Below are positions 1 through 13,988 of a DNA stretch of 34,496 nt, piece by piece. The DNA is from Candidatus Sumerlaeia bacterium (GTDB taxonomy: Bacteria > Sumerlaeota > Sumerlaeia > SLMS01 > JAHLLQ01): contig JANQSL010000270.1 of NCBI GenBank assembly GCA_028284075.1, positions 1-34,496 on the forward strand, written 5' to 3'. The notes under the pieces were generated by a model. It was not told the origin of the DNA, made no database searches, and was given only the letters and a program-made list of their open reading frames with translations. Numbering within the stretch: position 1 is the first letter of the stretch; every line of letters begins with the position of its first letter. The translations under genes and the position numbers were made by a program.

Positions 1-823
1 GATGGGGGACATCCGCGGCGAGTGCATTCCACTGGTCGGCCGGGTAGTGGCCTTGGAAGATGGGATCGTGCATCCATGCGTTGCGGTCCACAAACCCCAA
101 CCGTCCGGCCTCAATGTCTGCATCGGTATCGGACTGCGGCTCGGGAACATCCGGATTGTGTACAATCCCGAGTTGTGCGTCCGGAACTTCAGCACGCACA
201 GCCTTTACGGCACGTCCATGCGCCAACAAGACATGATGTGTCACCTGACGGATGACCTGCTCCGGATCTTTGCGGCCTGGTGCGTGTATTCCCGTTCGGT
301 GCCCGAGATTCACGATACAGGGCATTTCGTTGAATGTTGCCCACAGTTTGATCCGGTCACCCAGAGCCCTGGCCACAGTGACCGCATAGTTCGTAAATGC
401 ATCGACGATGGACCGCTCGCGCCAGCCTCCGGTTTCCTCGAGAGCCTGTGGCAAATCCCAGTGATACAGTGTTGCGCATGGGGTAATGCCGCGCGCCATC
501 ATTCCATCCGTCAGCCGGTCGTAGAAATCCAGCCCCGCCTGGTTTACGGCCCCCGTTCCCTTGGGAAAAACACGCGGCCATGCAATTGAGAATCGATAGT
601 GCGTCAGATTCAGTGACTTGATCAGATCAAGATCCGCTTCCCAGCGATGATAATGGTCACACGCCACATCGCCAGTGTCTCCATTCAGTATGGTTCCAGG
701 CCTTTCGCAGAACGCATCCCAGATCGACCTCCCTCGCCCGTCTTCACTGACGGCACCTTCGATCTGATACGATGCGGTTGCGGTACCCCAGGCGAATCCC
801 TGCGGGAATTCAAATCGTGCCAT
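1..823 (-). CDS. GH1 beta-glucosidase, 3' end cut by window edge
   Basis: Glycoside hydrolase family 1 enzyme. It probably hydrolyses terminal beta-glucosyl residues of cellobiose and short oligosaccharides. Only the first 274 residues are present; the frame is open to base 1. Seen near the N-terminus: GTATASYQIEGA (about residue 14), then HYRFSIAWPRVFPKG and LYHWDLPQAL, all classic GH1 blocks. The acid/base glutamate lies in TFNEMP, where most family members read TFNEP, so Pro is replaced by Met. The nucleophile motif (ITENG) would lie beyond the left edge. No signal peptide is seen, so it is probably cytoplasmic. The ATG at 823 begins 23 bases after the stop of the GH5 gene; the Shine-Dalgarno match is weak. 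The GH5 enzyme would release cello-oligosaccharides and this enzyme would convert them to glucose. The family is sure; the exact substrate is inferred. Confidence 0.93.
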   Translation of the reverse strand, partial: MARFEFPQGFAWGTATASYQIEGAVSEDGRGRSIWDAFCERPGTILNGDTGDVACDHYHRWEADLDLIKSLNLTHYRFSIAWPRVFPKGTGAVNQAGLDFYDRLTDGMMARGITPCATLYHWDLPQALEETGGWRERSIVDAFTNYAVTVARALGDRIKLWATFNEMPCIVNLGHRTGIHAPGRKDPEQVIRQVTHHVLLAHGRAVKAVRAEVPDAQLGIVHNPDVPEPQSDTDADIEAGRLGFVDRNAWMHDPIFQGHYPADQWNALAADVPH

Positions 824-846: not shown

Positions 847-1851
847 TTAATGAGCTGTTGGAATCAAAGCGTTCTTCAGACCCTCGCGCCATCTCTTCTC
901 ACCGGCATGGTAGATACCAAAGCCGCTGCAGAATTCCCAGTAGGCCCAGGGGATTTCCCGCGCTTCCGCTTCCTCCCGCACAAATCGGGTCCATGTCACT
1001 CGCGAATCCATGTCCGCCTTGCTGTACACGCCGAATTCTCCGAGATACAAAGGGATCTTTTTTTCTTCCGCCCATTCAACGGACCGGTCGAATGCTTCAC
1101 GCACATCTCTCGCCTGATCTTCTTCTCCCGTCCATGTTCGCCCGAGGTGCTTTTGCAGATCCGGTCCACCCCATTCAGCCCCTTGATGCGTGAATTCGTA
1201 CGGTTCATAGTAATGGAATGTCGCGACGAGATGATCGTCATCGGGCGGAACCAGAGAATCAAGCTCACGCCAGTTGTTGTAATTGCCACCTCCGACAATC
1301 ACAAAACGATCAGGATTTGAATCGCGAACCACGTCGAGCGCCTCCGCGAGAATCGGGTTCCATTTCTCATTCGTCAGCGAGCCGTGCGGTTCGTTCAGTA
1401 ACTCGAACGCCACTGTTTGCGGCCTGTCCGCGTAGCGCGGTGCAATCTGTCTCCACAGACCAAGGAAGCGCCCGTGATGACCCTCCGGGTCGGAGTACAA
1501 TTCCTCGTAGTGATGAACATTCAGAATCACTGCAAGGTCGCGCTGCGTCGCATTGTCCAGGACCCAGTCGACGCGCATGAAGAACTCAGGATTGATCGTG
1601 TATGGAATCTCCCGAGCCGCATGCGCGGACCAGCGGATGGGAACGCGAACGTGCTGAAAACCGGCTTCTCTGATCAGATCGAAGTACCCTTCCTCCAGCG
1701 TCACGCCCCATTGGCCTTCCTCCGGTGCCTCAAGAGCATTCCCCAGATTGATTCCGTGGCCGAATATCGAGGAGAAATCTTTTTCCTTTTCTTCTGCTAT
1801 AACAACGGAAGGGAGCAGAACGGCGAAGAAAAACCTGACAATGAAGCGCAC
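847..1851 (-). CDS. GH5 endoglucanase (cellulase), secreted
   Basis: Glycoside hydrolase family 5, 334 residues, likely an endo-beta-1,4-glucanase acting outside the cytoplasm. An N-terminal hydrophobic segment (residues 3-19) is a probable Sec signal peptide. GHGINLGNALEAP (31-43) is the typical GH5 N-terminal block. The acid/base Glu is in LLNEP (Glu154), HYYEP follows at 213-217, and the nucleophile Glu is in GEFG (Glu272). No carbohydrate-binding module or dockerin is present, so it is a bare catalytic domain of normal length. The start codon is GTG at 1851, preceded by GGAG seven bases upstream. It is followed at 23 bases by the GH1 gene, consistent with a two-gene beta-glucan operon. 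Activity on mannan or xyloglucan cannot be excluded because GH5 subfamilies differ in substrate. Confidence 0.9.
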   Translation of the reverse strand: MRFIVRFFFAVLLPSVVIAEEKEKDFSSIFGHGINLGNALEAPEEGQWGVTLEEGYFDLIREAGFQHVRVPIRWSAHAAREIPYTINPEFFMRVDWVLDNATQRDLAVILNVHHYEELYSDPEGHHGRFLGLWRQIAPRYADRPQTVAFELLNEPHGSLTNEKWNPILAEALDVVRDSNPDRFVIVGGGNYNNWRELDSLVPPDDDHLVATFHYYEPYEFTHQGAEWGGPDLQKHLGRTWTGEEDQARDVREAFDRSVEWAEEKKIPLYLGEFGVYSKADMDSRVTWTRFVREEAEAREIPWAYWEFCSGFGIYHAGEKRWREGLKNALIPTAH

Positions 1852-1930
1852 TGGCGACTCCGGGGCAAAGAATGACCCGAAGCCTTCGAGTATTCCCGGG
1901 TTGAGGCAAGGAAAACATTTTCCTTCCGGC

Positions 1931-2011
1931 TCAAAGTTTCCAGCGCTTGTCGGGTATCCCGCTGAAACCCCGGAGGAATTCTCTCAGGAAGTGGCGGAGT
2001 GGAGCGGACAT
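1931..2011 (-). CDS. possible 26-residue leader ORF upstream of GH5
   Basis: This short ORF lies in the 289-base gap between hemB and the GH5 gene. It reads ATG to TGA in 27 codons. A strong Shine-Dalgarno AAGGAGA (2018-2024 on the complement) sits six bases before the ATG, better than those of most annotated genes here. The peptide is basic and amphipathic, starts MSAPLRHFLREF, and has no membrane segment. It ends 79 bases before the GH5 start, so it could be a leader peptide for the beta-glucan genes or a free small protein. I recognise no family. Chance occurrence is possible because the ORF is so short. The rest of the gap holds nothing I can name. Confidence 0.3.
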   Translation of the reverse strand: MSAPLRHFLREFLRGFSGIPDKRWKL

Positions 2012-2140
2012 GGCGGGTCTCCTTCAGACGCGGACCCACACTCAGCCGATCCCACCATTTCCACAAGACACGCCGGGGCGATTTACCAGGCGGTACAATG
2101 TTCGAAGTTTTGAGTTTGTACCCGGGAAAATACGGGCCGG

Positions 2141-3145
2141 CTAGTCAGCGGCGGCAAGCAGCCTGGCTGCATCCATGGCACCGTAGGTCAGAATAACATC
2201 GGCGCCCGCACGCTTAAACCCCGTAAGGGACTCCACCAGACACTTCTCATAATCAAGCCAGCCGTTTTGTGCAGCGGCCTTCAGCATGGCATACTCACCG
2301 CTCACATGGTACACCGCCACCGGCAGCGTTGTCGATTCGCGCATGAGCCGCACGACATCAAGATACGGCAGTCCCGGCTTTACCATCAGCCAGTCGGCGC
2401 CTTCCGTTTCATCCAGGCGTATTTCGCGAAGAGCTTCCCGGGCGTTACGCGGATCCATCTGATATGTCTTTTTGTCGCCCGCACGCGGCGCCGAATCCAG
2501 TGCATCGCGGAACGGCCCGTAGAAAGCCGACGCGTACTTGACGCAATAACTGCAAATCGCCGTTTCCAGGCACCCGGCATCATCGAGGGCCGTGCGGATT
2601 GCGCCGACACGCCCGTCCATCATGTCCGAAGGAGCCACAATGTCGGCGCCCGCTTCCGCCTGAACGACAGCCATACGCGCCAGAACTTCCAGTGTCTCGT
2701 CATTCAGAATCCTGCCGTCCTCGACAATGCCATCGTGGCCATCGCTTGAATAGGGATCCAGTGCAACGTCCGTGAAAAGGAGAAGCTCCGGTACCTCCGC
2801 CTTCAGTATGCGAATCGTCCGTAGCAGCAGGCCATCGGGATTCAACGCCTCTTCGCCGTGCGGTGTCTTGAGCGAATCGGCAATGACCGGAAAGAGTGCC
2901 ACCGAACCGATGCCGAGGTCTGCTGTCCTCCGGCATTCTTCGACAAGGAGGTCCACCGACAGACGATTTACCCCCGGCATGGATGTGACCGGGACACGCT
3001 GATTTTCACCATCGATCACAAAGAAAGGCTGGATCAGATCGTCAACCCCAACACGTGCCTCCGCCACAAACGAACGCATCGCCCGCGAGGAACGATTCCG
3101 TCGGGGGCGATGCGGGATATTACGAATCCGGCCTGCTTCCGTCAT
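2141..3145 (-). CDS. hemB: delta-aminolevulinic acid dehydratase HemB (aspartate/Mg type)
   Basis: Porphobilinogen synthase, 334 residues, usual length. It condenses two 5-aminolevulinate molecules to porphobilinogen in cytoplasmic tetrapyrrole synthesis. The two Schiff-base lysines are visible: Lys203 in YCVKYASAFYGPFR and Lys256 in WLMVKPGLPYLD. The metal-site loop reads TDVALDPYSSDGHDG (125-139), with Ala and Asp where zinc enzymes carry three cysteines. This therefore belongs to the zinc-independent class, usually Mg-stimulated. The Arg-rich N-terminal arm is typical of the octamer-forming family. The start ATG at 3145 overlaps the folE2 stop in an ATGA arrangement, so translation is probably coupled. 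No other heme gene is nearby, which makes the partnership with folE2 notable. Confidence 0.97.
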   Translation of the reverse strand: MTEAGRIRNIPHRPRRNRSSRAMRSFVAEARVGVDDLIQPFFVIDGENQRVPVTSMPGVNRLSVDLLVEECRRTADLGIGSVALFPVIADSLKTPHGEEALNPDGLLLRTIRILKAEVPELLLFTDVALDPYSSDGHDGIVEDGRILNDETLEVLARMAVVQAEAGADIVAPSDMMDGRVGAIRTALDDAGCLETAICSYCVKYASAFYGPFRDALDSAPRAGDKKTYQMDPRNAREALREIRLDETEGADWLMVKPGLPYLDVVRLMRESTTLPVAVYHVSGEYAMLKAAAQNGWLDYEKCLVESLTGFKRAGADVILTYGAMDAARLLAAAD

Positions 3146-4005
3146 TGAGTGGTCCAGGAGAGCAGCGGCCCTTTTTCGCCGCGTTCGATCTGAGCATACG
3201 CATCATGATTGTGAATGCTCTCGTAATTGTTCGAAGACACGAAGAACCACTCGATCATTCCCGACTCAAGGTGCTTGTTCAGGTCCACCGCCACATCGCG
3301 AACGATGTCTTCAACAAACTTGGGATTCTCGTAGGCTTTTTCCGTCACGAACTTCTCATCCGGGCGCTTTAGAATGGGATAGAGCTGGCAGCTCGCATTC
3401 CGCTCCGCCACCTCAATCAGGTCCTCAAACCAGACGATCTCATCCGTCTCGCGCACCTTCAGAGTAATCTGCGAGCGCTGATTGTGAGCCCCGTATTCAC
3501 TGATTTCCCGGCTGCAGGGGCAGAGACTTGCCGCATTAACCTTCACCTCAACGATACGGTCGTACACACCATCCTTCGTCATGACGCCGCGGAATCCACA
3601 TTCATAATCCATCAGGCCCGGCAGGCCCGTGACCGGAGCGGGGCGCTGAAGAAACAGCGGGAATGTCATGTCGAAATACGCGCTCTCCGCATCCAGCAGC
3701 TCCAGCATGTGTGCGAGCACTTTCTGCACACTGGCGGGGGAGAGCACCTGCACTTTTTCCTGCAGCGCGATCATGAAGCGCGACATGTGCGTGCCTTTCT
3801 CGTAGTGAGGAAGGCTGACGCGCATGGACACATTGGCCACCGTGTTGACCGTGCCGCCGTCCCGCAGCGGAAACGTCACGGGATATCGTATGTTCGACAC
3901 ACCGACCTGGTCGATGGCGATGCCACGCTCGTCTTTGGTTTTCTGAATATCGGGAAGTGTGTGTGACACGTTCTTTGGCTGGGGGGGGATGGCTTCAGTG
4001 GTCAT
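3142..4005 (-). CDS. folE2: GTP cyclohydrolase FolE2 (GCYH-IB)
   Basis: Type IB GTP cyclohydrolase, 287 residues. It converts GTP to 7,8-dihydroneopterin triphosphate, the first step to folate and, in many bacteria, queuosine. Family blocks seen: SNIRYPVTF, the substrate and metal loop LCPCSREISEYGAHNQRSQ (catalytic Cys near residue 164, His near 174) and LYPILKRPDEKFVTEKAYENP. This type works without zinc, unlike FolE. I chose the ATG at 4005 because GGAG lies seven bases upstream and the following sequence matches the usual FolE2 N-terminus. A GTG at 4035 would add ten residues without a better ribosome site. The gene ends inside the hemB start codon. A 247-base gap separates it from the DUF819 gene upstream. 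Confidence 0.96.
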   Translation of the reverse strand: MTTEAIPPQPKNVSHTLPDIQKTKDERGIAIDQVGVSNIRYPVTFPLRDGGTVNTVANVSMRVSLPHYEKGTHMSRFMIALQEKVQVLSPASVQKVLAHMLELLDAESAYFDMTFPLFLQRPAPVTGLPGLMDYECGFRGVMTKDGVYDRIVEVKVNAASLCPCSREISEYGAHNQRSQITLKVRETDEIVWFEDLIEVAERNASCQLYPILKRPDEKFVTEKAYENPKFVEDIVRDVAVDLNKHLESGMIEWFFVSSNNYESIHNHDAYAQIERGEKGPLLSWTTQ

Positions 4006-4164
4006 CAAGTGCTCCAGTTCCGGAGGTTCAGACACATTCTGGAAAGCGTTTGGGTTTCGACGCGAGAGTGCTAAACAGTCCGATCAAATCTTGAATTCCT
4101 GGCTGTGGGCAAAAATTCGTTCATTCCGTCTTGGAGTAAGCCAGATATGGTCCAGAATCCTCGC

Positions 4165-4196
4165 CAGGCCCGGCCACAAAGCGAATATTCGGCCTG
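4165..4196. repeat. inverted repeat upstream of folE2
   Basis: CAGGCC (4165-4170) and GGCCTG (4191-4196) form a perfect 6-bp inverted repeat. Between them, and reaching into the right arm, lies the 10-bp palindrome CGAATATTCG (4182-4191). The element sits in the folE2 leader, about 160 bases before the start codon. It could be an RNA hairpin or a dimeric repressor operator. It does not resemble the Zur box consensus I know. No protein or ligand can be assigned. Confidence 0.35.
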
Positions 4197-4214
4197 AATC
4201 TCATCCTGTTCGAA

Positions 4215-4243
4215 AGCTTACGCAAGTTCCTCAGGTCTGCCAA
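4215..4243 (-). promoter_or_regulatory. candidate sigma-70-like promoter for folE2-hemB
   Basis: On the complement, TTGGCA (4243-4238) is followed after exactly 17 bases by TAAGCT (4220-4215). The -35 matches consensus at five of six positions, the -10 at three of six. It lies just after the DUF819 stop and would give a leader of about 200 bases containing the inverted repeat at 4165-4196. Weak evidence from sequence alone. Confidence 0.25.
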
Positions 4244-4252
4244 CAGTCAAAC

Positions 4253-5974
4253 TTACTCGCCTGCCAGCGCCTTGCACGTCGTTGCGATAATCAGAAGTGC
4301 CACCGGTGTTCCCAGCACTCCGCCAAGAATCGCCATGAGCAACCCGACCGGCGCCATGGACGAATTATAGGCGGCGGCCACCACCGGAGCCGATGCCGTT
4401 CCGCCGATATTGGCCATCGAGCTTGTTGCGCCCAGGAAAAGTGGCGCCCGGGTCAGCTTCACACCGGCAAACAGAATCGCGATATGGATGACAAGCCAGA
4501 CAAATCCGAGAGCAAAGAAAATTGGCACCTCAAGAATCGCCACCAGATTTGCACGCGCGCCATAAGTCGTCAGCAGCAGATACAAGCCCGTATAGCCAAT
4601 GGCCGATGCTCCGCAGAACTCCAGCTCACGAACCTTTGTCGTGCTCAGGAACAGACCGGCTGCCGTGATGAGCAGAATTCCCCAGCCGTAGGAGCTGAAG
4701 ATTTCAGCAAGGAACTCGATCTTCCATTTGTCCGCCACAAGAGAGTCGATCGGTTTGCCCAGAGCCATGCAGAGCTGGCTGACAAGAAACGCGATCGCGA
4801 CCATGAATGCGATATCAGCCGTGATGGGCGAGCGCGCTTTCGCATTCTGCTCCGCCTGCAGACGGGCGCTGATATCGTCAATGATACGTGCATCCGCCTT
4901 GTTCCATCGATCGATCTTCCTCTGATAGGCACTCATCGCGATCAGAAGTCCCAGCCACGAATACGCAAGCACCGTATCCACAATGACGAGCGGCCCGATC
5001 AGTCCCGGAGGCGTGCCGACCGTTTCGATCACCGCCGTCATGTTGGGTGAGCCGCCGATCCAGGAGCCCGCAATGGCGGCAACGCCCTTCCATGTGTCCG
5101 GCGGCAGGGCATCGGGCATCACTGCATTGAAGATGCCGAAGCTCGTAATGGCACCGATGGCGATGCCGGAGGTGGCGATTAACATGACAAGAATCGCCTT
5201 CGGGCCGAGCTGCACAATCGAGCGGATGTCCGACGGAATCAGAAGAAGCACCAGAATGGCCGGCAGCATGACCCGCGACATGAAGGGCGAATAGACCGGC
5301 GACGAATCAGGAATCAGCCCCGCGGTTGTGAGCACCATCGGAACAAAATACATCCAGATCAGCGGTGGCAGCAGCTCGAAGAACTTGGCGAGCGCCTTCC
5401 TTTGCGAGAGCCAGTAGATGCCTGCAACAACACCCGCCAGGACCGAAAAAAGGAGCACCGGATCAGTCACCAGCGAAAACGCCAGCGTGCCCGCGACAGG
5501 CGTTACGGCAAGCGTCGCGCTATCCGCCGAAGCCGATGCCTTTTCGATCAGGATCTGCTTGCGTGTGATGATTCGCGACGGCGCCTTGACATCGATCAGA
5601 GCAATCGTTCCTGCCGAGTCAAAATCCGACGCCATTGATTCCACCGAGAACGTCCAGGTTGCGTCACCGGTCTTCTCCATCGCCACAGTGGCTGTCGTTG
5701 AAACATCCGGACCTCGCCGAATGGAGACATCCGCGAGATTCGTGGCGCGGAAATCCGCCGTCCACTCGACTCGCACGCGCTCCGCCTCCCCCGTCTCGAG
5801 CGCTTCAAGGTCAACACCGGCCGACGCTGTCGTGCCGACACCTCCTCGAACGTCACCGATCTCAAGGGTGGGCGGGAGCACCTCCGCCGCCGCGGATTCT
5901 TCAGGGGTGGAGCAGCCGGTCAGTGTCGCCAGGGCGACTGCCAGCGCGATAATGATCAGGATCGTTTGTCGCAT
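4253..5974 (-). CDS. DUF819 membrane protein with N-terminal lipoprotein domain
   Basis: 573 residues in two parts. Residues 1-21 are a lipoprotein signal (hydrophobic stretch, then LTGC with Cys21). Residues 22 to about 165 form a soluble, Thr/Ser/Ala-rich, probably beta-sandwich extracytoplasmic region. From about 170 to the end there are ten or more hydrophobic helices that I assign to the DUF819 (YjcL-like) integral membrane family: KFFELLPPLIWMYFVP, IAGSWIGGSPNMTAVIE and LGATSSMANIGGTASAPVVA are family-like glycine/serine-rich blocks, resembling re-entrant regions of secondary transporters. DUF819 proteins normally lack the lipoprotein head and are near 380-400 residues, so this is a fusion. 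The start lies 81 bases after speA. Substrate unknown; an organic or amino-acid solute carrier is an inference. Confidence 0.85.
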   Translation of the reverse strand: MRQTILIIIALAVALATLTGCSTPEESAAAEVLPPTLEIGDVRGGVGTTASAGVDLEALETGEAERVRVEWTADFRATNLADVSIRRGPDVSTTATVAMEKTGDATWTFSVESMASDFDSAGTIALIDVKAPSRIITRKQILIEKASASADSATLAVTPVAGTLAFSLVTDPVLLFSVLAGVVAGIYWLSQRKALAKFFELLPPLIWMYFVPMVLTTAGLIPDSSPVYSPFMSRVMLPAILVLLLIPSDIRSIVQLGPKAILVMLIATSGIAIGAITSFGIFNAVMPDALPPDTWKGVAAIAGSWIGGSPNMTAVIETVGTPPGLIGPLVIVDTVLAYSWLGLLIAMSAYQRKIDRWNKADARIIDDISARLQAEQNAKARSPITADIAFMVAIAFLVSQLCMALGKPIDSLVADKWKIEFLAEIFSSYGWGILLITAAGLFLSTTKVRELEFCGASAIGYTGLYLLLTTYGARANLVAILEVPIFFALGFVWLVIHIAILFAGVKLTRAPLFLGATSSMANIGGTASAPVVAAAYNSSMAPVGLLMAILGGVLGTPVALLIIATTCKALAGE

Positions 5975-6055
5975 GGTTCGGCAGAACAGCCGCCCGAGCC
6001 AGGGAGGTCAATCGCGAACCAGGCTTGTTCCACCGAACCTCTCCTTCACCCTGAC

Positions 6056-7978
6056 CTACTCCAGGTAAGTGTACCCGTTCAGTCCGTTTTCGTAGAAGTC
6101 CATAATCTGACCTGACTCCCGAACGGTAAGACGGCCTTCCCGCAGCGCGGCCTCCACGTTCCTGCGCATCTTGTGCACAAGATTGTTTGTGTCGTACTGG
6201 ACGAACCCGAGAACTTCCTTCACCGTGTCTCCCTTGATGACATCCTCAATGACCGGCCGGCCCAGGCTGTCGACCGAGACATGTACAACATGCGTGTCCC
6301 CCAGCAGATTGTGCAGGTCGCCGAGGATTTCCTGATAGGCGCCGATCAGAAACACACCCAGGTGGTACGGCTGATCCGGCTTGAACTCATGCAGTTCCAG
6401 CGTGTTTTTGACATCCCTCAGATCCACGAACTGATCGATCTTTCCATCAGAGTCGCATGTGATGTCAGCAAGGACTCCACGACGGTCCGGCTCCTCATCA
6501 AGCCGGTGAATCGGCAGAACGGGAAACACCTGGCGGATGGCCCACGAGTCCGGCATGGACTGGAACAGCGAGAAATTGCAGAAGTAGATGTCCGAAAGAA
6601 GCTCCTGAAGTCCTTCCAGCTCATCCGGCACATAGCTCATCGTGGAGACAATACGCTGCACCTTGTGACAGATGTGCCAGAAGAACGATTCCGCATGAGC
6701 CCGAAGATCAAGATCCAGATAGCCCAGATTAAACAGATTCGCACATTCTTCCCGGGCCTGCACGGCATCGTGATACGATTCGATGAAGTTCTTCTGGCTG
6801 ATCTTTTCAGAGATATACAGCAGCTCGTGCAGAGGCTCCGGCGCTTCCTCCCCGATCCTGTCCGGCAGCTTGAACTCGTCCAGGCGTGACACACCCAGCA
6901 CGTTGAAAACCAGCACGCTGTTGAACGACATCAGTGCGCGGCCTGATTCCGACAGAATGGTCGGATGCGGTACCTTCGCATCGTCGCACACCGACATGAT
7001 TCGGAACACGATGTCACTGGCGTATTCCTGCAGTGTGTAGTTCATTGACGACTCGTAGTTCGTCTGCGATCCGTCATAGTCCACACCCAGACCGCCCCCG
7101 ACGTCCAGGTAACGCATGTTCGCACCGAGACGGTGCATTTCCACATAGATGCGTGCCGCCTCATTCACGGCCGACTTCACATGCCGAATGTTTGTAATCT
7201 GGCTTCCCATGTGAAAATGCAGCAACTGAAGGCAGTCGAGCATCTCGTGTTCCTTCAGATACTCCATCGCCTGGAGCACTTCCGGCAACGTCAGTCCGAA
7301 CTTCGACCGCACACCCGCCGACTGCTCCCAGCGCCCGCTCCCCTTCGCCGCAAGCTTCACTCGCAAGCCGATCTTCGGGCGTGCGCCATGGATTTTCGAG
7401 TGCTTCACAATGAGCTGCAGTTCGGTAAACTTTTCCACGATGGGCGTAATGTCTTTGCCCATCTTCGACGCCAGAACCACCAGCTCGATAAACTCATCGT
7501 CCTTGAAACCGTTGCAGACGATCGGCGTTTCGCCGTTCTCAGCCACTGCCATCACCGCCAGCAGTTCCGGTTTCGAGCCCGCTTCCATCCCGAAGCCGAA
7601 ATCCGCTCCGAAGCGTTTGTATTCCTCCACCAGATGACGCTGCTGGTTAACCTTGATGGGATAGATGCAGCGGTACCCGCCCTTGTACCCGTACTCGTCG
7701 ATGGCGGAGGAAAAACATCCGTGCATCTCCGTAATGCGGGTTTTCAAAACTTCAGAAAAGCGAATCAGGAGCGGCAGCCCCAGGCCGCGAGCCTGCAGAC
7801 TGTCCACCAGCTCCTTCAGATCGATCTGTTCATCCGGTTTCCGGTTGGGAAGGACCGCAACGTTGCCGTTGTCATTGATGTCGAAGAACCCCTTGCCCCA
7901 GTTGTGGATGTTATAGAGGTCCGCCGCGTCCTGCGTGGACCACTTCTCGATCTTCTTCAGAGCCTTGACGATGGTCAA
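6056..7978 (-). CDS. speA: biosynthetic arginine decarboxylase SpeA
   Basis: Fold-III PLP enzyme of 640 residues that decarboxylates arginine to agmatine, the entry to putrescine and spermidine. Seen: the PLP lysine in CIYPIKVNQQRHLVEE (about Lys109), HFHMGSQI, the phosphate loop YLDVGGGLGVDYDGS and the ESGRA block, in the order and length usual for SpeA (630-660 residues). The start is a TTG at 7978, chosen because a perfect AGGAGGT (7987-7993 on the complement) ends eight bases upstream. The frame stays open to 8068, but that extension is a Pro/Arg-rich stretch unlike SpeA. No agmatinase or agmatine deiminase gene is in the window, so the downstream polyamine steps are elsewhere. The DUF819 carrier follows at 81 bases. 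Confidence 0.96.
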   Translation of the reverse strand: MTIVKALKKIEKWSTQDAADLYNIHNWGKGFFDINDNGNVAVLPNRKPDEQIDLKELVDSLQARGLGLPLLIRFSEVLKTRITEMHGCFSSAIDEYGYKGGYRCIYPIKVNQQRHLVEEYKRFGADFGFGMEAGSKPELLAVMAVAENGETPIVCNGFKDDEFIELVVLASKMGKDITPIVEKFTELQLIVKHSKIHGARPKIGLRVKLAAKGSGRWEQSAGVRSKFGLTLPEVLQAMEYLKEHEMLDCLQLLHFHMGSQITNIRHVKSAVNEAARIYVEMHRLGANMRYLDVGGGLGVDYDGSQTNYESSMNYTLQEYASDIVFRIMSVCDDAKVPHPTILSESGRALMSFNSVLVFNVLGVSRLDEFKLPDRIGEEAPEPLHELLYISEKISQKNFIESYHDAVQAREECANLFNLGYLDLDLRAHAESFFWHICHKVQRIVSTMSYVPDELEGLQELLSDIYFCNFSLFQSMPDSWAIRQVFPVLPIHRLDEEPDRRGVLADITCDSDGKIDQFVDLRDVKNTLELHEFKPDQPYHLGVFLIGAYQEILGDLHNLLGDTHVVHVSVDSLGRPVIEDVIKGDTVKEVLGFVQYDTNNLVHKMRRNVEAALREGRLTVRESGQIMDFYENGLNGYTYLE

Positions 7979-7993
7979 TCGGGGGGACCTCCT
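7979..7993 (-). promoter_or_regulatory. speA: strong ribosome binding site setting the TTG start of speA
   Basis: AGGAGGT on the complement at 7993-7987, followed by an eight-base spacer (the complement of 7979-7986) and TTG. This is a full anti-SD match at ideal spacing and is the reason for placing the start at a TTG rather than at an upstream codon. Confidence 0.75.
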
Positions 7994-8172
7994 CGTGCGT
8001 CGTACCTGATGGGGCGGATTCCGCTGCGGCGGCCCTCGTATCGGGGGAACGACGGGCGGTCGCGTCAAGGATTACGTTGGCGGACAAACCATGAACTCAC
8101 AACGATCCGGCATGCGAAAGCCGGTCTTCCCGGCAATCCTCCCGCTTCCCGGTTGGAGTTCCGCGGTATCGA

Positions 8173-8886
8173 CTACTTCGCTCGCAGGAATGAGATCTCC
8201 ATCCTGATCCCTTTCGGATCGATCTCCGGCGTTGCGGGAAGGGTGACGCATTCCTTTTCACGCATCGCACAAATCAGTGCCACCGCAGCATCCAGTATAT
8301 CGTCTTGTCCCACACTGGAGGGACGGAACCGCGACTGTGCCCGTGAGACGGTTTCGAGAAGGTAAGGGTCGCCATGGTGCTGAAGAACCCGGAGCCGTTC
8401 CTCAGCACCTTCCGCTGTCTTTTTATTGTATTGGGCGGAGTTGCCCATAAGGCCACGGAAACAAACCTCCGGGTGAACCTCGCGAAAGCAGTTCCTTGCT
8501 TGCGGGACCGAACAGAGCAGTTCGTCCGTTTCTCGAATCTTCGGAACAATTCCCCACGCCTGCTTTGAGAGTTTTTTTCCTGTATGCAATTCGTTGAGTC
8601 GGGATGCCTCCTCGTAATTGTCCGCGTAAACCGCCTGGCGGCAGGGCACTCGAAAGACACTCGAACCGCGGGGGGATCCCAGCAGTTTGCGCGCCTCCAG
8701 GTCACACAGCCGCTCCTCCTCACCGGACTCTTTAAGACCGATGGGGACATCCACGAAGACTCGTGATTCAAATCCGAATAACTCCGTCAAATCCCGCAGG
8801 TCTCTCACTGTGCCAAACGAGTAAGCGCTTTCATCCTGGCTCAGATAGAACCACCCGCTCTTGCAGCCGTCGACGCCGACATACAT
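8173..8886 (-). CDS. DUF429 family protein
   Basis: 237 residues. The N-terminus MYVGVDGCKSGWFYL and FVDVPIGL about 45 residues later are DUF429 signatures. This family is predicted to have an RNase H-like fold, and the first Asp (in GVDGC) would be an active-site acid. KLSKQAWGIVPKIRETDE and REVHPEVCFRGL are also family blocks. The C-terminal DDILDAAVALICA helix fits the family's last conserved acidic motif. Predicted nuclease activity is unproven. The start at 8886 is set by AGGAG nine bases upstream; an upstream extension to 8940 lacks a ribosome site. It is divergent from the S13 peptidase gene. The 194 bases between it and speA contain no other gene I can support. Confidence 0.85.
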   Translation of the reverse strand: MYVGVDGCKSGWFYLSQDESAYSFGTVRDLRDLTELFGFESRVFVDVPIGLKESGEEERLCDLEARKLLGSPRGSSVFRVPCRQAVYADNYEEASRLNELHTGKKLSKQAWGIVPKIRETDELLCSVPQARNCFREVHPEVCFRGLMGNSAQYNKKTAEGAEERLRVLQHHGDPYLLETVSRAQSRFRPSSVGQDDILDAAVALICAMREKECVTLPATPEIDPKGIRMEISFLRAK

Positions 8887-8966
8887 GGGCGCTCTCCTCT
8901 GATTTGGCCGAACCCCGGAGGACACGGTACTGAAGCACAAAAGCCCTCCCTTCCTCTCATTCGGAA

Positions 8967-8994
8967 TTCAACGACAATTCAACAGTGCTTCAAC
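8967..8994. repeat. three TTCAAC direct repeats at 11-bp period
   Basis: TTCAAC occurs at 8967, 8978 and 8989, each start exactly 11 bases after the last (TTCAAC-N5 three times). Eleven-base direct repeats are the typical binding arrangement of OmpR/PhoB-family response regulators; the Bacillus PhoP box is TTAACA-like with the same period. The array lies in the divergent region between the DUF429 gene and the S13 peptidase gene, so it could control either. No such regulator gene is in the window. Confidence 0.5.
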
Positions 8995-9034
8995 GGACAA
9001 ACCACCCCTCACCAGGCGAGACTCCCTTCGACGC

Positions 9035-9063
9035 TTGCCCCTGCCTCCTGCCGGCGCGATAAG
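9035..9063 (+). promoter_or_regulatory. candidate promoter for S13 peptidase gene
   Basis: TTGCCC (9035-9040), 17-base spacer, GATAAG (9058-9063). Each hexamer matches the sigma-70 consensus at four of six positions. Transcription would begin near 9070, giving a leader of about 37 bases with GGAGAGAGGG just before the ATG at 9107. The TTCAAC repeats end about 40 bases upstream of the -35. Confidence 0.35.
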
Positions 9064-9106
9064 CAGAGGTGAGCAAACCGAACCCGCAAGTTGGAGAGAG
9101 GGACCG

Positions 9107-11812
9107 ATGAAAAAGACCACAGCGCTCCTGGCGCTGCTGCAATTCCTGACGGTCGGCGACGAGCTTCGCGCTCAGTCGCTCCAGACCGAGATAGACTCAA
9201 TACTCAACGATGGAAACGCGTGGTCCGTACTGGTCCAGTCGGACGACGCCATGGTAACCTACTACCGCCAGAACAAAGACACCGAGCGGACTCCCGCTTC
9301 CAATGCCAAGCTCGTGACAACTGCGGCCGCCTTCGGCTTGCTGGGTTCGGACCACGCTTTCGAGACACGCGTCTACACCAGTGGCTCCCTCATTGGAACC
9401 ACACTCAACGGCGACCTTAATCTCGTTGTCGAACACGACCTCACATGGAATACCTACTGCCTGAACAGCTCCGACCAGGCGCTGGACTTCCTCGCCGCCC
9501 GAATCGCTCAGCTGGGGATTCAGACCGTCACTGGAAACATCAACGTCTACGGCGCCGCCTATTACGGCCGCGGGCAGTTTGACGACGTTCGTTTCCTCGG
9601 CTCGAGCTACGACAACCAGACTGTTGCCACAACATTTCGCACATCCCTGACTCAGGCCGGTATCACAGTATCCGGCAGCGGCATTGGCCGCACGGGTTTC
9701 AACGCACCCGGCACGCTGTTCCACACACACCTTTCCACCGACCTGCTCTATGATAACGAGGAAACCGCCCACGCCTTTCTTGACGAGATGCCGCTGACCC
9801 TTGCGGCAGCCAATATTGAGATCAACCGCGTCAGCCACAACGCCATGGCCGACGGCCTTCTGTTTCATATTGGCTACAAAGTATCCGGCGTCAGCACCCT
9901 TGCGGCCGGGGCGGACGCCGTTCGCGACTGGCTCGAAAACACCGCTGGCATCGACACCGGAGATATTGTCATCGGTGACGGTTCCGGCCTTGCCCGCGGC
10001 ACAAATCCTCCCGGCAACGAATACAGCGCTCAGTTTTTTATCGATCTTCTTCGCTACATGACGGCGAACCACCCGGGCTACGACACCACACTCGCCATCA
10101 GCTGCGAGGATGGAACCATTGGCGGCCGGCTTTGCAATGCAGGTATGGCAGGCCGCGTCCATGCCAAGACCGGAACGCTGTTCACCACCATTGCCCTGTC
10201 GGGATACATGGATCATCCAACCTCCGGTGAGAGGATCTTCTTTTCCTTTCTGGCGAACAACAGCGGAGGCATCAGCTCCTCTGCAACTCGTGCAAACATG
10301 GATGCCGCACTCACCACCATCGCCAACGGTTTTCCTCCCGTCATTCCCGGTCTTTCCTCCGTCCGAAACGCCGGGACTGGCAGTTCCGTGGAGATACACG
10401 CCGCGCAGCAGGCCACTGGTATAACCTCCTGGGACATTCAATACAGCATCAATGATGGTCCCTTCTCAAATTCCATGGCACTGCCCCTGCCGGTCCCATA
10501 CATCATTGGAACGCGGACCGATCAGCCGAACTTTGGCGATTACCAGGAGATCACGGGAACCTGGGCGAACACCTCGGCAACGTCCCAGGCGCCCGGACTG
10601 ACGGGCTCCCTTGGTGGGCGCTGGGCCGTTCCCAACGACGGTGGAGCCGCGGACGTGGCCCGCTTTGTTCCCTCCGCACTCTCCGGAGGGCGTTACGAAG
10701 TCGACGTAACCACCTACGGTTTGTTCCTCAGCGACAACGCGCACCAGGTCACCTGGCGAATCAACGACGCCAATGGCCTTCGCACCGGCAGGACCGACTT
10801 GTCCTTCGAGACGACCGGTGATGTTTGGGCGCCCCTTGCAATCTGTGACTTCATTCCCGGCCAGGGCCACTACATTGAGTTCGACAACTCCACTCAGGTA
10901 AACAACGTGGGCACAACAACCGCCGGCAATTCGCGAATGGTCATGTCCGGCGTGCGTTTCATGCCGACGGCGGCTGTCGCGACCATCACCGGCCTGAATC
11001 CGGGCGATCGCATTGATGCACGTCTCATCGCGCGTAACGGAGCACAGACAAGTTCCGCCAGTGACACATACTCGGCCCGAGTCTCCGCTCAACCCTCCCG
11101 CGTCCTTCTCATCGATGGAAACGACCGGTGGGACACCCAGGGCGAAAACACCGGAGGTACGTCACACGACTTCGTGACAAACGTTGCTTCAGCAATGCCC
11201 GGAGACCTTGCTTTCGACGCGGCGGAAAATCACGCCGTCATTCGCGGCGATGTGCCGCTTGACGACTATGATCTTGTCATCTGGTTGCTTGGCGAGGAAT
11301 CGACACAGGACGAGGCTTTCTCCGACACGGAGCAGGCACTTGTCTCCGATTACATGGCTTCCGGTGGACGCATTATTATCTCCGGAGCGGAATTCGGATG
11401 GGACCTTGAAGCCCTGGGTTCATCGACCGACACCGACTTTCTTCATAATACGCTTCGTATCGACTATCTTGCCGATGACACGACGGCGGCAACGGCGGGA
11501 TTGACACCCGTGAACGGTGACATCTTTGCCGGGATAACCAACCTGGCCTATGATGCAGGTCCAATGGTCATCGGATTTCCCGATGTTCTCGGCGGTCTTG
11601 CCGGTGCACGAGTCGTTATGAACTATCAGGGCACGTCAGAAGGGGCCGCCGTTGCGTGGAAAGACGACCCTGCCGGACCAGGTGCAGTCGCCTTTGGTTT
11701 CCCCGTGACCATGATCTCCAGTGACGCTGCGCGAGCCCAGCTCCTGGACGCGGCAATCGACTACCTGCTGCAACAGCAAAACGATCCGGACGATTTGTGG
11801 ATGATTCGCTGA
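9107..11812 (+). CDS. secreted S13 D-Ala-D-Ala carboxypeptidase with golvesin-like and GATase-like C-terminal domains
   Basis: 901 residues. Residues 1-22 are a signal peptide. About 25-410 is a peptidase S13 (DacB/PBP4) domain with all three penicillin-binding motifs: Ser65-Asn-Ala-Lys68, Ser243-His-Asn245 and Lys354-Thr-Gly. It should cleave the terminal D-Ala of peptidoglycan pentapeptides, perhaps also cross-links, in the periplasm. Typical S13 proteins end near here at 450-500 residues. The tail continues with half of an FN3-like domain (about 412-460), a golvesin/Xly-type beta domain (about 465-620), the second FN3 half (about 622-665) and an alpha/beta domain starting RVLLIDGNDRW that resembles a GATase or ThuA fold. 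The start ATG follows GGAGAGAGGG. The S13 call is sure; the tail domains are inferred from sequence pattern. Confidence 0.9.
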   Translation: MKKTTALLALLQFLTVGDELRAQSLQTEIDSILNDGNAWSVLVQSDDAMVTYYRQNKDTERTPASNAKLVTTAAAFGLLGSDHAFETRVYTSGSLIGTTLNGDLNLVVEHDLTWNTYCLNSSDQALDFLAARIAQLGIQTVTGNINVYGAAYYGRGQFDDVRFLGSSYDNQTVATTFRTSLTQAGITVSGSGIGRTGFNAPGTLFHTHLSTDLLYDNEETAHAFLDEMPLTLAAANIEINRVSHNAMADGLLFHIGYKVSGVSTLAAGADAVRDWLENTAGIDTGDIVIGDGSGLARGTNPPGNEYSAQFFIDLLRYMTANHPGYDTTLAISCEDGTIGGRLCNAGMAGRVHAKTGTLFTTIALSGYMDHPTSGERIFFSFLANNSGGISSSATRANMDAALTTIANGFPPVIPGLSSVRNAGTGSSVEIHAAQQATGITSWDIQYSINDGPFSNSMALPLPVPYIIGTRTDQPNFGDYQEITGTWANTSATSQAPGLTGSLGGRWAVPNDGGAADVARFVPSALSGGRYEVDVTTYGLFLSDNAHQVTWRINDANGLRTGRTDLSFETTGDVWAPLAICDFIPGQGHYIEFDNSTQVNNVGTTTAGNSRMVMSGVRFMPTAAVATITGLNPGDRIDARLIARNGAQTSSASDTYSARVSAQPSRVLLIDGNDRWDTQGENTGGTSHDFVTNVASAMPGDLAFDAAENHAVIRGDVPLDDYDLVIWLLGEESTQDEAFSDTEQALVSDYMASGGRIIISGAEFGWDLEALGSSTDTDFLHNTLRIDYLADDTTAATAGLTPVNGDIFAGITNLAYDAGPMVIGFPDVLGGLAGARVVMNYQGTSEGAAVAWKDDPAGPGAVAFGFPVTMISSDAARAQLLDAAIDYLLQQQNDPDDLWMIR

Positions 11813-11839
11813 CCGTCCCGCATCGAGGCGGTCAGCGGG
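11805..11839. terminator. hairpin at convergent junction S13 peptidase / rsfS
   Basis: CGCTGACCG (11807-11815) and CGGTCAGCG (11829-11837) are perfectly complementary. The stem extends inward by U-G and C-G pairs and outward by two U-G pairs, leaving a loop of nine bases. It covers the TGA of the S13 gene. No T-run follows on either strand, so it is a 3' stem-loop or U-less terminator rather than a classic intrinsic terminator. Confidence 0.5.
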
Positions 11840-11858
11840 AGATACTGTCACCCGAGAG

Positions 11859-12230
11859 CTACGCCCCTGCCGCGACTTCCTCGGGAGACCACTCAACGAC
11901 ACGGCCGTCTCCCCAGAGACTCTCCAGCCGGTAGTATTCTCGCGCTTCCCGGTCCATGACATGAATCATCACGTCACCGTAGTCCATAACCACCCAGGAA
12001 GTCGTGCCCGCCATCCCATCGACAAGCGGCTTTCCGGCACCGGCATCCGCCATGCCTTCGCGAATGTTGCTCACAATTGCACGAAGCTGGAGCGAAGATG
12101 AGCCGGTGCAGACCACCAGTGAGTCGGTGAACATACAGATTCCATCAACATCGAGGAGTACCACCTCCTCGGCTTTTTTGTCATCTGCCAGACGGGCGGC
12201 CATGATGGCCTTTTCAGCGGTTTCCAGCAC
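11859..12230 (-). CDS. rsfS: ribosome silencing factor RsfS
   Basis: RsfS/Iojap family, 123 residues. It binds ribosomal protein uL14 on the 50S subunit and blocks subunit joining when nutrients run low. Seen: the DVDGICMFTDSLVVCTGSSSLQ block (written DxxxxxxxxDyfvi.tG.s in the family), WVVMDYGDVMIHVMD and REYYRLESLWGDG. The start is GTG at 12230, with AAAGGG about eleven bases upstream inside the yqeK tail; an ATG nine codons later is possible but would remove part of the first helix. The gene follows yqeK after five bases, the usual yqeK-rsfS pairing. Its stop faces the S13 peptidase gene across 46 bases. Confidence 0.95.
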   Translation of the reverse strand: MLETAEKAIMAARLADDKKAEEVVLLDVDGICMFTDSLVVCTGSSSLQLRAIVSNIREGMADAGAGKPLVDGMAGTTSWVVMDYGDVMIHVMDREAREYYRLESLWGDGRVVEWSPEEVAAGA

Positions 12231-12235
12231 GGGGT

Positions 12236-12901
12236 TCAGTTCCCTTTCTGTGCGTTGAGATGGAGCCAGTCAGCCATCGCCCTTGTGTGGGGATGTGCCT
12301 CTCGGCCCTTTTCCTGAAGTCGAACGAGCTTGCGTTGTGCCACCTCCCGGGCGGCCTCCCTGATGGGCTTTGTGAGAATATCGGCCCTGATCTGTTCCAC
12401 TCCGTCCCAGTTGCGGGACGGCTCCGTGAAATCCGCAATATAGAGAACCATTCCAACAGGAGACAGATCCTTGCGCCCTGTGGAATGATGGATCACCGCA
12501 TCAAGAATGTCATCGTCTGTTACTCCCCATCGATCCATACCTTCCTGAGCGGCGATCATTCCATGCCAGATGGAAGGATAGCTTCGGTCTTCATCCGTGA
12601 CCTGCACGATACGGCAATTCTCCAGCAACTCAGCCTGCTGGCTTTTCGGGAAGGGTTTTGCCACATCATGAAGCAGAGCGGCGAGGAGGCATTTATCCAC
12701 ATCCACTCCCCAATGGTGGGCCAAAACGACACTCATTCCCTCAACTCCAAGAACGTGAGGGATTCGAGTCCCGGGTGTCCGGGCCAACAGCTCGGACCTG
12801 ATATTGCAAGAGAGTTCGGAAACGGCAGTAGTGATAATAGGCGCTCTATCTCCGACAAAATGACCTGACTCTACTCTTTTCAACCACCCGCAGTATGGCA
12901 A
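12236..12901 (-). CDS. yqeK: YqeK-type HD phosphohydrolase (Ap4A hydrolase)
   Basis: HD-superfamily enzyme of the YqeK family, which hydrolyses diadenosine tetraphosphate symmetrically to two ADP. Metal ligands seen: His49 in PHVLGVEGM, His78-Asp79 in ALLHDVAKPFP, His in SIWHGMIAA, HHSTG and the family block LYIADFTEPSR. The start is uncertain. The ORF opens with TTG at 12901, and a second TTG lies six codons on; neither has a clean Shine-Dalgarno. A promoter candidate ending at 12924 supports a start near here. It is coupled to rsfS downstream. The nadD gene that often precedes this pair is absent; instead a divergent ABC operon lies upstream. Confidence 0.88.
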   Translation of the reverse strand: MPYCGWLKRVESGHFVGDRAPIITTAVSELSCNIRSELLARTPGTRIPHVLGVEGMSVVLAHHWGVDVDKCLLAALLHDVAKPFPKSQQAELLENCRIVQVTDEDRSYPSIWHGMIAAQEGMDRWGVTDDDILDAVIHHSTGRKDLSPVGMVLYIADFTEPSRNWDGVEQIRADILTKPIREAAREVAQRKLVRLQEKGREAHPHTRAMADWLHLNAQKGN

Positions 12902-12923
12902 CCCTTAAACGCGGATCCTGTGG

Positions 12924-12953
12924 ATTATTGCCTCATCCTGAAGAAGCTGTCAG
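12924..12953 (-). promoter_or_regulatory. candidate promoter for yqeK-rsfS
   Basis: On the complement, CTGACA (12953-12948), an 18-base spacer and AATAAT (12929-12924). Both hexamers match sigma-70 consensus at five of six positions, the best promoter match I found in the window. Transcription would start near 12917, about 16 bases before the first TTG of yqeK. Confidence 0.45.
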
Positions 12954-13046
12954 ACTGTTGGGAACAGTGGGGTTGGTCTGGTAATCGGCAGCGATTTTGC
13001 CACTATTCTCTGGCGGACCGGAAAGGCGATGTGAAAGGTTTGTGGC

Positions 13047-13988
13047 ATGATTGAATCGAAGCCCGTCATCGAAGTGAAAGACCTTGTGGTCGACTACGGC
13101 CGGGGGAAGAAAACCCAAAGAGCCGTAAAGGGCATCACTTTCGAAGTCCGCGAGGGTGAATGCATTGGTTTCATTGGTGCCAACGGGGCCGGCAAATCGA
13201 CCACCATGAAAACTCTCATGGGATTTCTTTTTCCCTCCAGCGGATCGGCCACGTTGTTCGGCCGTGACGCCCGCGACAAGGAGAGCCGCCGCCGTATCGG
13301 ATACTTGCCGGAGGTTGCTCTCTACTATCCGTTCATGAAGGCCCGCGAGCTTCTGGAACTTTACGGCGGATTGAGCGGTCTGTCGAAGTCGGAACTGCGC
13401 CGCCGTATACCTCCCCTGCTGGAAAAAGTGGGTCTTGCCGGAAAGGGCGAGGTGCTTCTGAGGAATTTCTCGAAGGGCATGCAGCAGCGTGTGGGCATTG
13501 CCCAGGCCATTATTGCCGAACCGGAACTGCTCATCTTCGACGAACTCTCCTCCGGTCTCGATCCCGTTGGCCGTCACGACCTGCGAAACGTTCTGGTGGA
13601 ATTGAAGGATGCGGGACGCACCATCTTTTTCAGTTCGCACGAACTGACGGAGGTGGAGGCACTCTGCGATCGCGTGGTGATGATCCACCGGGGTGAAATC
13701 GTGACGGAGGCCACTGTCGACGAGCTGATGAAACCGTTGAACGTCTATGAGATCACGTTTCACCTGCCGGACGGTTCACGGATTCCCGACGCCGTCAGAG
13801 GGCACGGCGTGAAAACGGACGGTCACCTGCACACGCTCACGATCACGGACGTCGAAGAGTACTCGCAGGCGGTTTCCGAACTCGCGGCGGCCGGAGTCAG
13901 TATTCAGAATACATCGTCAAAGGCGCAGAGCCTCGAGGATTACTTCATCGATCTGGTTCAATCCAGGGAGCGTGAAACGGCATCGTGA
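13047..13988 (+). CDS. ABC exporter ATP-binding protein
   Basis: 313 residues, cytoplasmic ATPase of an ABC-2-type exporter. Walker A GANGAGKS (44-51), GYLPE in the Q-loop region (85-89), signature FSKGMQQR (141-148), Walker B LLIFDE (161-166) and switch His in FFSSHEL. After about residue 225 comes an 85-residue C-terminal domain, as in CcmA/DrrA- and GldA-like exporters. The ATG at 13047 is preceded by AAAGG at eight bases. The stop overlaps the GTG start of the first permease (GTGA). Together with two permeases and a membrane-anchored repeat protein it forms a four-gene operon. The exported substrate is unknown; lipid, polysaccharide or peptide are all possible. Confidence 0.95.
   Translation: MIESKPVIEVKDLVVDYGRGKKTQRAVKGITFEVREGECIGFIGANGAGKSTTMKTLMGFLFPSSGSATLFGRDARDKESRRRIGYLPEVALYYPFMKARELLELYGGLSGLSKSELRRRIPPLLEKVGLAGKGEVLLRNFSKGMQQRVGIAQAIIAEPELLIFDELSSGLDPVGRHDLRNVLVELKDAGRTIFFSSHELTEVEALCDRVVMIHRGEIVTEATVDELMKPLNVYEITFHLPDGSRIPDAVRGHGVKTDGHLHTLTITDVEEYSQAVSELAAAGVSIQNTSSKAQSLEDYFIDLVQSRERETAS

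Follow-up and report, generated by a model that had tools for sequence, protein, structure and literature searches.

The enzymes of peptidase family S13 carry three catalytic motifs: SxxK, SxN and KTG. Here, we analyzed a gene for a predicted S13 enzyme with a long C-terminal tail, located on contig JANQSL010000270.1 of a Candidatus Sumerlaeia bacterium of the phylum Sumerlaeota (NCBI GenBank assembly GCA_028284075.1). The whole stretch of DNA under analysis (positions 1 to 34,496; 34,496 nucleotides) is referred to as the window, and the product of the S13 gene as the window protein. By structural model and comparison with relatives, its tail is an FN3 domain split by a golvesin-like jelly roll and followed by a domain resembling glutamine amidotransferases (GATases) and ThuA, i.e., known parts arranged anew.

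Some relatives of these parts have been characterized. In the sections of PMC9166713 that deal with the lectins Cbeg4 and Cbeg5, their isolated carbohydrate-binding modules (CBMs; IPR033803), of the same type as those of xanthan lyase and golvesin, are described as binding glycans on an array of 609. A DUF4960 clone, predicted to be flavodoxin-like, bound levan, in single experiments according to the figure legend (PMC10076258). The part of a review devoted to the xanthan lyase PXL mentions a further terminal, unclassified xanthan-binding module (XBM) and reports reduced activity of PXL after deletion of XBMs (PMC10881899).

The features of the gene are as follows, with residue numbers referring to the window protein:

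9107..11812, + strand: S13 DD-peptidase gene, ATG at 9107, 901 amino acids (aa), stop included
9107..9175, + strand: signal peptide, residues 1-23, judged by eye from the sequence
9179..10324, + strand: Peptidase_S13 domain, residues 25-406, from Pfam, NCBIfam and PDB relatives
9299..9310, + strand: motif SxxK, residues 65-68 (PASNAK at 63)
9833..9841, + strand: motif SxN, residues 243-245 (SHN at 243)
10166..10174, + strand: motif KTG, residues 354-356 (AKTG at 353)
10331..10492, + strand: FN3 strands one to four, before the insert, residues 409-462, from alignment, FN3 profile, model and fold match
10499..10960, + strand: golvesin-like jelly roll, residues 465-618, from profile, alignment and fold match
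10967..11086, + strand: FN3 strands five to seven, after the insert, residues 621-660, on the same evidence as the first four
11096..11776, + strand: GATase/ThuA-like alpha/beta domain, residues 664-890, its supposed elbow lacking Cys, from alignment, profiles and model
11789..11809, + strand: C-terminal segment DDLWMIR, which may be the tag treated below in weakened form, with Trp at -4 kept, from comparison of tail ends

The open frame spans 9035..11812(+), its longest start choice being an in-frame TTG at 9035. An earlier reading made from the DNA letters alone (the sequence-only reading) had called the product an S13 carboxypeptidase, and the profile searches bore this out: PF02113 matched with E 4.1e-47 (161.4 bits vs a cut-off of 22.8) and TIGR00666 (PBP4) with 124.9 bits (cut-off 107.8). 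All three motifs occur in the order SxxK, SxN, KTG, and the PDB relatives of the head are named PBP4, DacC or D-alanyl-D-alanine carboxypeptidase. By family, the window protein is predicted to be an S13 (PBP4-type) DD-peptidase. Its own genome gave 11 S13 matches, some of which are fragments of a single protein.

A jelly roll nested in an FN3 domain

The structure of the tail was modeled with AlphaFold from three sequences. Seven FN3 strands were recognized in the model (11-17, 24-29, 37-44 and 51-55, then 218-223, 231-240 and 251-254), and the strands of the golvesin-like jelly roll fall between the fourth and the fifth, thus interrupting the FN3 domain. With VIA-align, the seven-strand sandwich was matched to the FN3 domain 3f7q_A (Z 13.0, root-mean-square deviation (rmsd) 1.7, 91 residues over model 6..258), and the jelly roll to residues 902-1040 of the xanthan lyase 6f2p, which we take to be PXL (Z 13.6, rmsd 3.1, 131 residues over model 58..218). 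VIA-align reports the first and last aligned residues only; the FN3 match is read as discontinuous because 91 residues are aligned within a span of 253 and because of the positions of the strands. The sequence-only reading had placed a golvesin-like block inside an FN3 domain, with flanks at about 412-460 and 622-665, and had proposed structure prediction as a check. The model indeed makes one FN3 domain of both flanks, and their limits agree with ours.

An FN3 profile was built from nine plain FN3 domains of the same genome (nine of ten proteins sharing the tail; the one at L011 was omitted) and applied to the nine S13 proteins found to carry the insert. Their joined flanks scored 28.0, 26.7, 21.3, 17.6, 15.4, 15.1, 9.9, 9.5 (window protein) and 7.2 bits. 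As the best of 180 shuffles gave 7.2 bits, eight of the nine lie above every shuffle and one equals the best. The second half alone accounts for 8.4 of the 9.5 bits of the window protein, and in L027 it scores higher by itself (11.1 bits) than the joined flanks. When the sequences were left unjoined, both halves were detected in order around the insert in two of the nine, with low scores: L030 (profile positions 2-52, then 67-97) and L055 (2-53, then 73-94). Since the window protein's own sequence is weak evidence for FN3, the nesting claim is carried by the relatives and the structure.

Several results weigh against the nested arrangement. The mean predicted local distance difference test score (pLDDT) of the tail model is 55, with ten-residue means of 55 to 80 at 21-80 and 111-250, 31 to 40 at 81-110, and lower values beyond 380. 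No Pfam fn3 match was obtained in the window protein, whole or in pieces, and the golvesin-like domain stays under its curated score (see below). Golvesin and FN3 could then be two separate, adjacent domains, the FN3 appearance of the flanks being due to chance, and the low, largely one-sided score of the window protein as well as the seven nested proteins without both halves in uninterrupted sequence would fit this. Against it stand the complete FN3 domain formed by both flanks in the model, the weak FN3 halves on either side of the insert in L030 and L055, and an S13 protein that carries the FN3 domain whole (L033). We rejected separate domains on alignment, FN3 profile and fold match, and consider them extremely improbable.

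For the insert itself, no golvesin match was obtained when the whole window protein was scanned with Pfam. Residues 460-632 alone matched PF25275, presumably the same domain as IPR033803, with E 1.3e-5 and 25.7 bits. This is below the gathering score of Golvesin_C (31.6), as are the 25.2 bits of the orthologue (L009), and the domain is therefore named golvesin-like. The jelly-roll fold of xanthan lyase was recovered in a model of moderate to low confidence, and Foldseek matched the insert to 6f2p (E 3.7e-6) and to MiXBM 7ehg (E 2.3e-4, probability 1.00). The golvesin assignment of the sequence-only reading thus stood for the profile E-value and the fold, and fell short of the curated score. 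That reading had named two outcomes as refuting its proposal, namely unrelated separate domains in a predicted structure and the lack of any golvesin match; neither was obtained. A GHL10 protein next to the orthologue contains a domain 48% identical to the window's golvesin-like domain and passes the golvesin cut-off with two stretches (36.3 bits).

Relatives were sought in 40 genomes of Sumerlaeota, with matches listed down to E about 1e-17. Golvesin matches numbered 43 in the window's own genome and occurred in 31 of the 40 phylum genomes and in one of 14 control genomes. A scan of contigs with the single sequence, which catches close relatives only, gave 11 stretches with one relative (66% identical over nearly the full length); in viral contigs, none of 45 pattern stretches was confirmed. 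The insert was found at the same FN3 site in at least nine S13 proteins from seven of the 40 genomes (the window protein, L027 to L032, L054 and L055), L027 being on the same contig as the orthologue. The architecture proposed by the sequence-only reading, which had remarked that S13 enzymes are not usually built this way, is supported in nearly every detail. L033, from genome G014, combines an S13 head, an uninterrupted FN3 domain and the GATase-like domain, with no golvesin, and nine other proteins of the window's own genome align as plain FN3 plus GATase-like domain.

In a tree of S13 domains (23 rows), the nine nested proteins form one clade (92/96), recovered in 90% of 200 bootstrap trees. 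L033 falls outside this clade, and its place among the mini-S13 enzymes (see below) is not firm. The S13 tree favors a single insertion. Some results speak against this history: the value of 92 is below the 95 that the tool marks with a star, the insert may instead have been lost in the line of L033, and the nine inserts formed one clade in none of the 200 bootstrap trees of either of two golvesin trees, so repeated gain or conversion of the insert may have occurred. One clade of inserts was not rejected (approximately unbiased test, p-AU 0.34). The S13 inserts join golvesins linked to GHL10 (100/100), apart from those of amidases and mini-S13 enzymes. In the first golvesin tree, the stretch taken from the GHL10 protein L062 was overlong (328 aa); the second used fixed lengths for the GHL10 rows and left out 13 amidase and mini-S13 rows. 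Directly downstream of the orthologue lies a GHL10-FN3-golvesin gene (open frame from 10923, likely start 11271), and at the corresponding position the window has RsfS on the opposite strand.

A binding domain in a loop of a spacer FN3, together with an uninterrupted relative, offers a clear example of domain insertion in nature, and the nesting illustrates a way in which modules for targeting may be gained by enzymes that cut the wall.

The GATase/ThuA-like domain and the proposed role of the tail

For the last domain, 29 of 36 candidate rows were used in the alignment. The Pfam family ThuA matched the window protein or its domain with E 0.0061 to 0.047 (0.0061 for the domain), below the cut-off, and 10 of the 29 members at E up to 1. 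A model was obtained from two sequences. The 50 fold matches listed for this low-confidence model span Z 8.0 to 10.4 and include ThuA-like proteins (4jqs_A, Z 9.8), class-I GATases such as HisH, alpha/beta domains of beta-mannosidase 7bob and of GH42 and GH164 enzymes, and the levan-utilisome chain 8aa2_G (Z 9.4). IFT52 and oligosaccharyltransferase subunits are among the remaining matches. Foldseek returned nothing for this model at E up to 0.001 (best 1.5e-3). The nucleophile elbow was placed at positions 98-101 from the model and the general layout of the fold. These positions read S/T-G-A/S/N-E/Q/N, and no Cys occurs at positions 93-107 in any of the 29 sequences, which makes glutaminase activity unlikely. 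Tyr, Trp, Glu, Gly, Asp, Leu and Phe occupy the invariant positions. No His is invariant; one at position 26 is common to 21 of the 29. Of the GATase-like C-terminus suggested by the sequence-only reading, the fold was tentatively retained, from a low-confidence model; the ThuA profile stayed below its cut-off and the Cys was missing.

By analogy with the levan-binding DUF4960 domain, we read it as a probable non-catalytic binding domain. An active ThuA-type enzyme or amidotransferase working with the S13 head would be compatible with the ThuA-like and HisH folds, the ThuA matches and the common His, but the elbow region free of Cys in all members and the lack of an invariant His make an active enzyme highly improbable. 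The likeness to DUF4960 has its own counter-evidence. At E up to 1, seven of the 29 members matched the DUF4960 family, the best of them with 0.0047; the gathering score was not reached, and the window's own domain was not among these matches. The sole PDB sequence match of the domain profile was a weak one to the DUF4960 protein 8aa2_T (E 0.54), and the model has a pLDDT of 57.9 and a predicted template modeling score of 0.67, with residues 127-187 under 50. Two GATase-like units within one protein, with FN3-like sequence ahead, were observed at L034:1-2682, L035:400-3900 and L043:2-2695.

With a probability of roughly 60%, we regard the window protein as an exported S13 DD-carboxypeptidase/endopeptidase with a glycan-targeting tail, made of an FN3 scaffold, an inserted jelly roll and a dead GATase-like binder; we infer its export, enzymatic activity, glycan binding and purpose. 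The FN3 domain would serve as spacer and scaffold. One loop of this scaffold would have received a golvesin-like, carbohydrate-binding jelly roll, most simply once, in an ancestor already ordered S13-FN3-GATase. Lying within the loop, the insert would be attached where the chain enters and leaves it, at two crossings rather than through a single flexible linker. The GATase-like domain, flavodoxin-like and catalytically dead, would serve for binding, and both binding modules would keep the wall-cutting active site on a glycan, be it the cell's own or a foreign wall or a matrix polysaccharide. Binding by the characterized relatives leads us to infer, by analogy, that glycans are bound by the tail, which keeps the S13 head close to its substrate; it may in this way anchor the enzyme to a polymer, as the sequence-only reading had suggested.

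The tail was matched at ten other places in the window's own genome. Five of these were scanned with Pfam, revealing Amidase_3 (L014, L015), M14 (L013) and M1 (L011) heads, and golvesin plus fn3 with no amidase match at L021. L020, L022, L023, L024 and L026 resemble the same amidase type by eye. The same FN3-GATase tail behind amidase, M14 and M1 heads would fit a set of secreted degrading enzymes, and its occurrence behind amidases and peptidases across the phylum makes the GATase-like tail a candidate new non-catalytic binding family. At L014:215-3016, golvesin is apparently inserted within the Amidase_3 domain, ahead of the FN3 and GATase-like tail, since the golvesin match (259-385) precedes an Amidase_3 match that starts at profile position 70; by eye, L020-L024 and L026 look alike.

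Ten neighboring ORFs (open reading frames) were scanned with Pfam in window 847-13988, giving GH5, ALAD, FolE2-type, DUF819, arginine decarboxylase, DUF429, RsfS, HD and ABC transporter matches, and none for one ORF. Beyond the GH5, no wall or polymer system is indicated among them, which counts against the role proposed here. A local gene cluster around the S13 gene was rejected, as no link among the ten was seen.

A C-terminal tag in Sumerlaeota

Known C-terminal sorting tags include GlyGly-CTERM, PEP-CTERM and the C-terminal domain (CTD) of the type IX secretion system (T9SS). Comparison of tail ends revealed that many proteins end in Trp-x-hydrophobic-aromatic-stop. Among 45 proteins that bear the tail or golvesin and whose C-terminus is intact (the window protein included), Trp stands exactly at -4 in 21 and within the last eight residues in 26; in crude background ORF sets, it stands at -4 in 1.6% to 7.5%. 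The last residues of both the orthologue L009 and the relative L030 are GSGWVLY.

With a DNA pattern for [DN]-W-x-[LF]-Y-stop, which also admits TGG, 128 matches were obtained in 32 of the 40 genomes; we counted 116 true stops among them. The codon-order-reversed control gave 23 matches with 9 true stops, and a backwards-string control 54 matches (our sum). At 30 loci with this looser pattern, 24 of 27 true-stop matches have an open frame of at least 60 aa, the other three being chance. The strict pattern V-x-D-W-x-[LF]-Y-stop gave 79 matches in 23 of the 40 genomes, 78 of them true stops, vs one in the backwards-string control. It is absent from 17 genomes and has few copies per genome, two in the window's own.

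Twenty full ORFs were selected without regard to Val (the complete sets of seven matches in G019 and seven in G030, the four true stops among five in G035 and two of six in G033). All twenty have Val at -7 and A, S or T at -9, and 19 of 24 further tagged ORFs have Val at -7. By a home-made rule, 16 of the 20 carry a signal peptide, vs 93 of 452 crude background ORFs. The latter came from G013 and G000, and any ORF still open at the edge of the stretch used was scored as lacking one. Ten scanned tag proteins contain unrelated domains or none (FG-GAP, LTD, TIG, endonuclease, NAGPA, M23, GH57). The tag sites include the ends of the tagged ORFs in L142-L161 and L009:18544-18564. A broad test on the 452 gene calls gave a weak result, with endings of the W.[LIVM] type in 3/53 and 3/40 exported-like calls vs 2/190 and 5/169 others. 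A looser form of the tag gave eight matches, two of which look like chance, vs two for its reversed form. In G001 and G002 (family f3), golvesin proteins are present and neither tag pattern was matched; other endings were seen there (VPIELSVFSAD in L036; VPVGLTLLGDQ and IPAGITMLGQD in L056 and L064).

Pfam and NCBIfam scans name no family for the tag, although an element so short could escape them, and we found no description of it in the literature on Sumerlaeota and C-terminal sorting signals. V-x-D-W-x-L-Y-stop looks like an undescribed sorting signal, to judge from these sequence patterns. We tentatively suggest, at somewhat less than even odds, that Sumerlaeota have an undescribed route for sorting or processing proteins, with the S13 family among its cargo and with this tag, without a transmembrane helix, as its mark. 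The window protein itself ends in DDLWMIR, and its tag membership is therefore uncertain.

If the route exists, the tag should have a partner protein. Exosortase was rejected as partner, being found in four of the 40 genomes. Peptidase_C25, presumably the PorU/gingipain family, was found in 38 of the 40 and in none of 14 controls, with many frames of about 800, 1500 and 1800 aa; as it also occurs in tagless genomes, it is a lead only. A search for SprA_N gave no match anywhere, controls included, and is uninformative.

The tag could also change the view of the tail, with the inner domains acting mainly as spacers and the tag placing the enzyme at the cell surface or in a secretion system. Its position after unrelated domains and linkers, the excess of Trp at -4 and the intact endings of L009 and L030 agree with such placement. 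The window protein's own weakened end does not, nor do the nested L054 and L055, which stop right after the FN3 domain with neither GATase-like domain nor tag, nor L033, which lacks the tag; we consider placement by the tag unlikely and prefer the glycan-targeting tail. The tag is a more surprising by-product than the nesting: if it acts as a sorting signal, sequence alone would suffice to list a portion of an uncultured phylum's surface proteome, and the tag would point to a machine still to be found.

Comparison with described systems

With the S13 enzymes of the PBP4 type (DacB, DacC), the window protein shares all three motifs and above-cut-off Pfam and NCBIfam scores. It differs in its extra tail and in the distance from SxxK to SxN, which is 180 residues compared with 253-265 in the four of seven canonical rows where it could be measured. 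Even shorter heads were observed in a group of mini-S13 enzymes (L010:1248-3047, L012:513-2222, L025:1157-2521, L068:794-2572 and L069:720-2621), with 40-43 residues from SxxK to SxN (four of five measured) and 138-144 from SxxK to KTG in all five (canonical 355-373). They carry golvesin as well, by Pfam in L012 and L025 and by reading in the other three.

The Golvesin_C or xanthan lyase C-terminal domain (PF25275; 6f2p, 7ehg) matches the window insert in fold and profile, but the insert is under the Pfam score and sits inside an FN3 loop. We found no description of this nesting in the literature on golvesin, Sumerlaeota, inserted FN3 or CBM domains, the xanthan lyase CBM, MiXBM, DUF4960, or S13 with carbohydrate-binding. 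The Bacteroides lectins Cbeg4 and Cbeg5 bring FN3 and this CBM type together, and the CBM alone suffices for glycan binding; in the sections dealing with them, no enzyme domain is reported and nesting is not mentioned (PMC9166713). The DUF4960 levan-binding domain (PMC10076258) resembles the GATase-like domain as a flavodoxin-like, non-catalytic binding domain and through the fold match to the levan-utilisome chain, whereas the relation in sequence is weak.

Like GlyGly-CTERM, PEP-CTERM and the T9SS CTD, the tag is a C-terminal element on many exported proteins. V-x-D-W-x-L-Y differs from them in having no transmembrane helix or basic end, and the T9SS tail model TIGR04183 is nearly absent from the phylum, with one match in each of four of the 40 genomes and none in the window's own.

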